A stretch of DNA of 64,000 nt from Gemmatimonadaceae bacterium (GTDB lineage: Bacteria; Gemmatimonadota; Gemmatimonadetes; Gemmatimonadales; Gemmatimonadaceae), in the NCBI GenBank assembly GCA_022843265.1, contig JALHNZ010000005.1:1-64000 (forward strand), given 5' to 3'. Below, one piece after another: positions 41,612-51,815 of this stretch; position 1 is the stretch's first letter; each line of letters starts with the position of its first letter. The translations under genes were made by a program, and so were the position numbers. Below the pieces are notes generated by a model that did no database searches, was not told the origin of the DNA, and saw only the letters and a program-made list of their open reading frames with translations.

Positions 41612-42352
41612 ATGCCAGGAACCGAAAACCCGATACCCCACAGCGTGGTGAACGCCGCGAAACCAGCCGTCGTGCTGCTCAGTGGCGGCCTTGATTCCAC
41701 CACCGTGCTGGCCGTGGCTCGCCGCGATGGTTTCTCGCCGCACGCCATGACATTTCGTTATGGCCAGCGACATTCTCATGAGATTGACGCGGCGCATCGC
41801 GTTGCGGCGGCGCAGGGCGTGTCCGCGCACGTGGTGGTCGACATCGATCTGCGACAGTGGGGGGGCTCGGCGCTGACCAGCGACGCGGCCGTCCCGAAGG
41901 ATCGCGACGTGTCGGCGGCGCATGATATTCCCATCACATACGTACCAGCGCGCAATACGATTTTTCTTTCGTTTGCCCTCGCCTGGGCGGAGACCCTCGG
42001 CGCGACAGATATTTTCGTTGGGGTGAACGCGCTCGACTATTCGGGCTACCCCGACTGTCGTCCGGAGTACTTACGCGCGTTTGAGCACATGGCGAATCTG
42101 GCCACCCGCGCCGGCGTCGAAGGCACGCAGCGTCTCACGATTCACGCGCCACTCCTGCATCTCACGAAAGCGGGCATCGTGTCGCTCGGCCACTCGCTTG
42201 GCGTTGACTACTCGCTCACCACGAGCTGTTATGATCCCGCCCCCGACGGCGCGGCCTGCGGACACTGTGATGCTTGTCTGCTGCGACTGAAAGGCTTTGC
42301 CGAAGCAGGTGCACATGATCCGATTGCGTACGTGGAGTCGCGCCGATCGTGA
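41612..42352 (+). CDS. queC: 7-cyano-7-deazaguanine (preQ0) synthase
   Basis: A 246-residue ATP-dependent enzyme converting 7-carboxy-7-deazaguanine and ammonia to preQ0 in queuosine synthesis. The PP-loop motif SGGLDSTT is at residues 24-31; TFRYGQRH and [17 protein letters not shown] are typical. The zinc-binding cysteines are in [24 protein letters not shown] 41612 fits the family length; the open frame starts far upstream inside the M28 gene. Its stop overlaps queE (GTGA). Confidence 0.95.
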
Positions 42353-42993
42353 CCTACACGGTGAAAGAGATTTTTTACACGTTGCAGGGCGAAGGTGTGA
42401 ACGCCGGGCGGCCCGCGGTGTTTTGCCGATTCAGCGGATGCAATTTGTGGACGGGACGCGAAGCCGATCGTGCCAATGCGATCTGTCAGTTTTGCGACAC
42501 GGATTTTGTGGGTGTGGGTCCGGACGGCGGAAAATTCGCGACGGCACAAGCGCTCGCGGCCGCTGTGTTGGCGCGCTGGCCGGCCGATGCACCGCCGCAC
42601 GTGCGCCCGTTTGTTGTGTGCACCGGCGGTGAGCCGCTGCTACAGCTTGATGCGGCGGCGATTGATGCACTGCACGCCGCGGGATTCGAAATCGCCGTGG
42701 AGAGCAACGGGACCATCGCGGCACCGGACGGCATTGACTGGTTGTGCGTGAGTCCGAAGGTCAATGCGACGCTGGTGCAAACGCGTGGGCAGGAGCTGAA
42801 GCTGGTGTTTCCGCAAATGGGAGCGCTCGGAGATCCGGCGCGGTTTGCCGAGTTGGCGTTTGAAAACTTTTTGCTGCAGCCCATGGATGGGCCGGCGCGC
42901 GCGGAGAACACGGCGGCGGCAATTGCGTACTGTCTGGCGCATCCGCAGTGGCGGTTGTCGGTGCAGACGCACAAAGATATCGGGGTGCGTTGA
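42349..42993 (+). CDS. queE: 7-carboxy-7-deazaguanine synthase (radical SAM)
   Basis: A 214-residue radical SAM enzyme forming 7-carboxy-7-deazaguanine from 6-carboxytetrahydropterin. The cluster motif is the atypical CX14CX2C form: C31, C46, C49 ([21 protein letters not shown]), as in the Burkholderia-type QueE. The start [20 protein letters not shown] and [10 protein letters not shown] (SAM binding) are present. It is coupled to queC. QueD, which makes its substrate, is encoded separately at 51.5 kb. Confidence 0.95.
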
Positions 42994-50757: not shown

Positions 50758-51438
50758 GTGCCTACTTCTGCACGCCAGCGTCGTGTTTTGTCCCGCGCAG
50801 CTCTCGCGGCCGTCGTCACGGTGACGGCAGCGACCGCGTCTGCGCAGAGCGGAGCATCGACATCAGGAGCGAGCCGAGTGTCGGCCGCGGAAACGAACTT
50901 GTCGGCGATGCCGAAGGCCGCGATCGATCTGGCGAGGCCGCGCGCGTTCACGGCGCTCGCCGCATCGGTCACGGCACTTCGTGACTCAGTGGTCTCTCGC
51001 GCACGTAGCGCGATGGGCATTCGCTATGTGCTTGGTGGCAACGACCCCTCGCGGGGGTTGGATTGCAGTTCACTCATCAAGTACGTGCTCGGCGCGATTG
51101 ATATCTCACTCCCGCGCACGGCGCAGGAGCAGGCGCGCGCCGGACGTGCGATTCCCAAAGATCGCACGCAAATGAAGCCGGGTGACCTGCTCACGTTTGG
51201 CACCGGCTCCAAGATCACGCACGTGGGCATGTATGTTGGCGAAGGACGGTTCGTGCACGCCAGCACCTCGAAGCGCCAGGTGATTGAAAGCTCGCTGGAT
51301 GAAACGCGCTCCTCGCTCGTCCGCCAGTGGAAGGGCGTGCGCCGCCTCGTTGATGGTGATTTTGTGGCGGCGCGATATGACAGCGTGTTCGCGTATCTCG
51401 ATTCGATGCGCGATTCCGTCACCGACCGACGCCCCTGA
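50758..51438 (+). CDS. NlpC/P60 family cell-wall endopeptidase
   Basis: A 226-residue exported cysteine peptidase that would cut peptidoglycan stem peptides. The start is GTG 50758 and the signal peptide ends TATASAQ. The catalytic set is C103 (GLDCSSLIKYVLG), H155 (ITHVGMYVG) and H167 (RFVHAST). The N-terminal region up to residue 80 is Ala/Ser-rich with no recognised wall-binding domain. The C-terminal 50 residues are charged. The queD-like gene starts 17 bases later. Confidence 0.92.
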   Translation: MPTSARQRRVLSRAALAAVVTVTAATASAQSGASTSGASRVSAAETNLSAMPKAAIDLARPRAFTALAASVTALRDSVVSRARSAMGIRYVLGGNDPSRGLDCSSLIKYVLGAIDISLPRTAQEQARAGRAIPKDRTQMKPGDLLTFGTGSKITHVGMYVGEGRFVHASTSKRQVIESSLDETRSSLVRQWKGVRRLVDGDFVAARYDSVFAYLDSMRDSVTDRRP

Positions 51439-51455
51439 GCTCGTTGGGACCTCCG

Positions 51456-51815
51456 GTGGCAGAGCTGTCCGCCGATTTCACGCTCGCCAGCGCGCGGCGA
51501 CTGCCAAACGTGACCGAAGGACATCCGTGCGGCCGGTTGCACGGTCACACGTTTGGCGTGCGTCTTGTCGTGCGCGGCGCCATTGATCCCCAGAGTGGTT
51601 GGGTGATCGACTTCGCCGACCTGGCCAACGCGTGGGCGCCAGTGCACGACGCACTCGATCATCGCTTGCTGAACGAGGTGCCGGGGTTGGCCAATCCGAC
51701 CAGCGAAAACATTGCGCTCTGGATCTGGAAGGCGCTGCGCGTCACGATCCCTTCGCTCGTCGCCGTCGAAATTTCTGAAACCGGTGGTTTCCGAGTGATA
51801 TATCGCGGCGAGTAG
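51456..51815 (+). CDS. queD: QueD-like 6-carboxytetrahydropterin synthase with an altered zinc ligand
   Basis: A 119-residue protein aligning along its whole length with E. coli QueD (recalled from memory): DFTLASARRLPNVTEGHPCGRLHGHTF, GWVIDFADL, ALDHRLLNEVPGLANPTSENIALWIW and VEISETGGFRVIYRG. QueD makes 6-carboxytetrahydropterin from dihydroneopterin triphosphate, feeding QueE. The nucleophile Cys, the Asp-His pair (LDH) and the C-terminal Glu are present, and so are the two HGH ligands. The first zinc ligand (AAHRLP in E. coli) is Arg here (SARRLP, codon CGG). GTG 51456 is chosen; TTG 51444 is an alternative. Confidence 0.85.
   Translation: MAELSADFTLASARRLPNVTEGHPCGRLHGHTFGVRLVVRGAIDPQSGWVIDFADLANAWAPVHDALDHRLLNEVPGLANPTSENIALWIWKALRVTIPSLVAVEISETGGFRVIYRGE

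Follow-up and report, generated by a model that had tools for sequence, protein, structure and literature searches.

A QueD homologue encoded in the 64,000-nucleotide stretch of Gemmatimonadaceae DNA analysed here (hereafter the window) carries an arginine in place of the first zinc-ligand histidine, and proteins of this Arg type are a conserved zinc-site variant of QueD. The usual view is that QueD is a zinc enzyme and that the zinc-ligand histidine is essential in its family. Judging from sequence, the Arg type is most likely the genuine QueD of the cells that carry it, and it probably functions even though its zinc site is altered or missing. Our preferred reading, to which we assign a probability of roughly one half, is that it is the working QueD of a conserved Arg-type subfamily in which the guanidinium group of the arginine would take the place of zinc, so that little or no zinc would be needed. 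An earlier description of a QueD lacking a zinc ligand was not found in the open-licence literature, and novelty is judged within that scope.

The gene lies on the forward strand at positions 51,456 to 51,815, counted from the GTG start used in an earlier note on this DNA and including the TAG stop codon, and its 119-residue product belongs to the PTPS family. The product scores 106.1 bits against PF01242 and 95.2 bits against the NCBIfam QueD equivalog model TIGR03367, above the cut-off of 89.25 bits, and five further Arg-type proteins also exceed this cut-off (90.4 to 103 bits). Curated annotation models therefore label Arg-type proteins as QueD, leaving the zinc-site change unmarked. Among solved structures, E. 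coli QueD is the closest relative, at a sequence identity of approximately 52–53%; the near-complete match to QueD of the earlier note is slightly generous for this figure, but what the note says about the active site is exact. An AlphaFold model of the window protein (mean pLDDT of 97.1) matches E. coli QueD (4ntn) with a TM score of 0.98 and at 0.8 Å.

The phmmer alignment to E. coli QueD (4ntm) is gapless and places FTLASARRLP over FTFEAAHRLP. Arg14 (codon CGG, positions 51,495 to 51,497, forward strand) therefore replaces the first zinc-ligand histidine, which is His16 in E. coli QueD and is present in all His-type relatives. This substitution was the central claim of the earlier note, and the realignment that might have overturned it fails, as none brings another histidine to the site of residue 14. 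Also as claimed, the catalytic cysteine, the Asp-His pair and the glutamate are all present. On the forward strand, Pro24-Cys25 (51,525 to 51,530) combines a lysine-to-proline change with the adjacent, retained catalytic cysteine, His29-Gly30-His31 (51,540 to 51,548) holds the remaining two zinc-ligand histidines, Asp68-His69 (51,657 to 51,662) is the catalytic pair, and Glu108 (51,777 to 51,779) is the pterin-anchoring glutamate. Among the 36 Arg-type sequences, all of which have Arg14 by definition (36/36), Cys25, His29, His31, His69, Glu84 and Glu108 are each found in 36/36 and Asp68 in 35/36, with one Asp68Glu. The window protein thus has the catalytic cysteine, CxxxHGH motif, Asp-His pair and glutamate of QueD, and, in common with the remaining 35 Arg types, keeps two of the three histidines of the zinc site. 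Because the first histidine is an arginine, we file the protein as a QueD variant and not as a standard member.

The first-strand histidine and the two histidines of the HGH motif are the established zinc ligands of the family, and their equivalents in Plasmodium PTPS are H29, H41 and H43 (PMC7546909). According to the same paper, which cites older work, related enzymes became inactive or nearly so when active-site residues, the zinc histidines among them, were mutated, and a change to arginine should therefore need compensation. A comparison of alignment columns between the 36 Arg-type and 66 His-type sequences revealed no position at which a His, Cys, Asp or Glu had been gained in every Arg type, so the new compensating ligand envisaged in the earlier note is not visible as a conserved residue. 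The nearest to a gained ligand are position 64, which is histidine in 26/36 Arg types, and position 22, which is Asp or Glu in about two thirds of them. Lys24, next to the catalytic cysteine, is lost in 35/36 Arg types (proline in 32), whereas position 24 is lysine or arginine in 60/66 His types, an association that spans few phylogenetically independent pairs. Positions 6, 24, 57 and 107, all four of which are lysine in E. coli QueD according to the alignment, hold a mean of 0.3 basic residues in Arg types against 3.0 in His types from the same phylum and 3.1 in other His types, a contrast that is only descriptive because the four columns were selected after viewing the data. Overall net charge is alike in the two types. 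The pattern suggests that the site has been rebuilt around Arg14, going beyond mere tolerance of it, with the Arg clades counting as few independent events because both may share one ancestor.

Under the preferred reading, Arg-type QueD would act as the 6-carboxy-5,6,7,8-tetrahydropterin synthase that provides QueE and QueC with their queuosine precursor and, less firmly than this function, the Arg14 guanidinium may occupy the zinc position. There it would take over from the zinc of His-type QueD the task of polarising the oxygens in the side chain of dihydroneopterin triphosphate, and proton transfer is predicted to fall to Cys25 and Asp68-His69. Related T-fold enzymes such as dihydroneopterin aldolase use no metal to turn over a substrate that is closely related to that of QueD. 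The more specific proposal of a naturally metal-free QueD, in which the guanidinium does the job of zinc and the basic residues at positions 6, 24, 57 and 107 were lost in a coordinated manner, is tentative and falls a little short of even odds. A point against it is the invariance of His29 and His31, as might be expected if the two still bound a metal.

The main rival is a weakened two-histidine site: a working QueD in which zinc, iron or manganese is still coordinated by His29 and His31, the additional ligand being water, oxygens of the substrate or another residue, for instance Cys25, while Arg14 points away or touches a substrate phosphate. We regard this as a credible but less probable alternative. 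A site in which two histidines and the substrate together bind a metal is chemically possible, both histidines are conserved in all Arg types, and the enrichment of His64 would fit such a site even though it is not universal. Against it, no ligand has been gained by all Arg-type sequences, and a cationic arginine next to a two-histidine zinc is expected to be electrostatically unfavourable. For these two reasons, and because the arginine is uniform within lineages, we favour arginine standing in for zinc.

The genomic context ties the Arg type to queuosine synthesis. In the window, queC (41,666 to 42,352, forward strand; PF06508, 251.5 bits) is delimited from the start of its domain to its stop codon, with the true start slightly upstream, and queE (42,349 to 42,993, forward strand) overlaps the stop of queC; the distance of 8.5 kb to queD given in the earlier note agrees with the ends of these genes. 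Across the window's genus (g1), the distance from queD to queC-queE is 3 to 18 kb in the four genomes that have both loci on one contig. Neighbourhoods were examined using tblastn because some queD genes escaped crude ORF calling in the GC-rich flanks. In genera g13, g20 and g48, Arg-type queD is located directly behind queE in 16/16 genomes, with queC also in view in 15, and His-type queD occupies the same slot in G009, G683, G015 and G675. The link of queD to queC and queE is thus found for the Arg type as well. Informative conserved neighbours were not found alongside the Arg-type genes of Beta- and Gammaproteobacteria.

Arg-type queD is the sole PF01242 match in 11 of the 14 proteobacterial carrier genomes (G060–G066, G517, G404, G445 and G607), and the other three (G483, G547 and G663) have further PTPS homologues. 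It is unlikely that a second QueD was lost to missing sequence in all 11 drafts, whose completeness is not given. QueE was present in 18/18 genomes tested, including 14/14 proteobacterial carriers; QueC was present in 16/16, among them seven of the 14 proteobacterial carriers, and in these seven queE adjoins queC. TGT (tRNA-guanine transglycosylase) was present in 22/23 genomes tested and in 13/14 proteobacterial carriers. A search of the window's own genome for the second queD suggested by the earlier note yielded no His-type QueD, only two other PTPS homologues, on contigs C69 and C10, which score 59–60 bits against the QueD model and thus fall below 89.25. Three genomes with a His-type QueD (G009, G026 and G068) have three PTPS homologues each. 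As His-type genomes also carry extra paralogues, the two extras in the window's genome are probably not QueD replacements.

The same observations bear on the suggestion, raised in the earlier note, that the reaction has changed, in which case the protein would not be a QueD but an enzyme acting on a different pterin, such as one of the folate or biopterin pathway. In its favour, the zinc of PTPS-family enzymes coordinates the side chain of the substrate, and a substrate with less charge could explain why positions 6, 24, 57 and 107 are no longer basic. A changed reaction is nevertheless improbable because of the queC-queE-queD order in those 16 genomes and the sole-copy status of the Arg type, the 11 proteobacterial genomes without another candidate QueD all having QueE. 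The protein also keeps the cysteine nucleophile and CxxxHGH, and has neither the glutamate of PTPS-III nor the CxxxxxHGH of the folE-linked paralogue.

A conserved lineage without one ligand and without a back-up copy suggests that the chemistry is feasible in a rebuilt site. The Arg type is in this respect a natural test of the role of zinc in QueD, with a bearing on the zinc economy of cells in queuosine synthesis. If the metal-free reading is true, the queuosine pathway would be zinc-independent at the QueD step in whole lineages.

The window protein resembles E. coli-type QueD (PTPS-I; TIGR03367; 4ntk, 4ntm and 3qn0) in fold (0.8 Å), length, CxxxHGH motif with catalytic cysteine, Asp-His pair, glutamate, a score above the curated cut-off and, in relatives, an operon with queC and queE. 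It differs in having arginine for the first zinc histidine and proline for the lysine beside the catalytic cysteine, and the Arg type has lost three further basic positions. The Zur-regulated QueD2 of proteobacteria (PMC2770081; A. baumannii structure 7v0f) is likewise QueD-like and has been discussed in the context of zinc saving. Such paralogues are second copies that have been proposed to save zinc and whose expression is predicted to rise under zinc starvation; their zinc-binding residues are stated to be conserved (PMC2770081). The Arg type, in contrast, lacks one zinc ligand and is the main QueD, often the sole one: it does not sit beside a normal QueD in the window's genome, nor in the 11 proteobacterial genomes in which it is the sole copy. 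PTPS-II, the mammalian type, belongs to the same family and has the same overall active site, but its representative here, the C69 paralogue beside folE (59.8 bits on the QueD model), has C-x5-HGH spacing, a retained histidine and a biopterin-type context, whereas the spacing in the window protein is C-x3-HGH. PTPS-III (folate bypass; Plasmodium type) is also a PTPS variant defined by one altered active-site residue, but it swaps the nucleophile cysteine for glutamate and keeps the zinc histidine. The Arg type does the reverse, with Cys25 retained in all 36 sequences.

Arg-type QueD is an uncommon but recurrent variant, and the question posed in the earlier note of whether relatives share the arginine is answered by its conservation in several lineages. 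Position 14 is arginine in 5/5 genomes of the window's genus, the other four reading SARRLP or SARWLP with codons CGC, CGT, CGC and CGA. Within 179 genomes of the family, a pattern search recovered 81 QueD sequences, 21 with arginine and 60 with histidine, and among the matched QueDs the Arg type accounts for 5/5 in g1, 10/10 in g13, 5/6 in g20 and 1/1 in g48. An additional AGA-coded arginine, invisible to the search pattern, was found in G022 (genus g19); Arg14 codons within the family comprise all four CGN codons plus this AGA. Arg14 is uniform in whole genera, and drift to other residues is absent. Outside the phylum, the Arg type is found in Thiobacillus, Tepidiphilus-labelled and other Beta- and Gammaproteobacteria. 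Pattern searches identified eight true Arg types (starting genome included) among 349 genomes from the order of one proteobacterial carrier, and only the starting genome plus one more among 369 genomes from the class of another. A scan of viral contigs found no relatives of the window QueD.

Arg-type queD is under purifying selection: pairwise dN/dS values in genera g1 and g13 range from 0.03 to 0.29 and are mostly below 0.15, with many dS values near saturation. A decaying or inactive gene copy is therefore very unlikely, even though the lost ligand is one whose mutation abolishes activity in relatives, as the gene is intact in all genomes examined, the other active-site residues are retained and the arginine is uniform in whole genera. 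A sequencing or assembly error at codon 14, which the earlier note had allowed for and which might be entertained for a 211-contig draft assembly, is excluded because the arginine recurs, with different codons, in the remaining four genomes of the genus as well as in further genera.

In the phylogeny, the Arg types of Gemmatimonadota fall into one supported group (22 with G683), and another group is made up of 13 proteobacterial Arg types. The free tree implies four changes of His/Arg state. A tree uniting all Arg types was not rejected (p-AU of 0.67 and 0.76) and outscores the quick search. The Arg type may thus have had one origin followed by transfer, or several origins. G683 (L229) is nested in the Arg clade and has His14 yet already Pro24; it may represent an intermediate or a revertant.

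The start of queD is probably CTG 51,435 rather than GTG 51,456, which would add an N-terminal extension (51,435 to 51,455, forward strand). An NlpC/P60 peptidase gene (50,758 to 51,438, forward strand) lies directly upstream and is probably translationally coupled to queD, the CTG overlapping its stop codon as CTGA (51,435 to 51,438). The same site is present in G001–G004 (L088–L091), and the CTGA overlap and in-frame relation hold in 5/5 genomes of the genus. It is likely that translation of queD begins at this rare CTG and is coupled to that of the upstream gene, because three relatives (G002, G003 and G004) have no in-frame ATG, GTG or TTG start for queD.

Further variation was observed among the PTPS paralogues and TGT genes. 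The C10 paralogue of the window's genome (L007, positions 1,486 to 1,914, G000) has the motif CARPNFHGH, is found throughout the genus and in relatives, and falls below the QueD cut-off. G663 has four PTPS homologues, one of which (contig C11, L192) has HGG for HGH, another zinc-site variant. The window's genome has two TGT homologues, on contigs C37 and C81; several relatives also have two and others have one.
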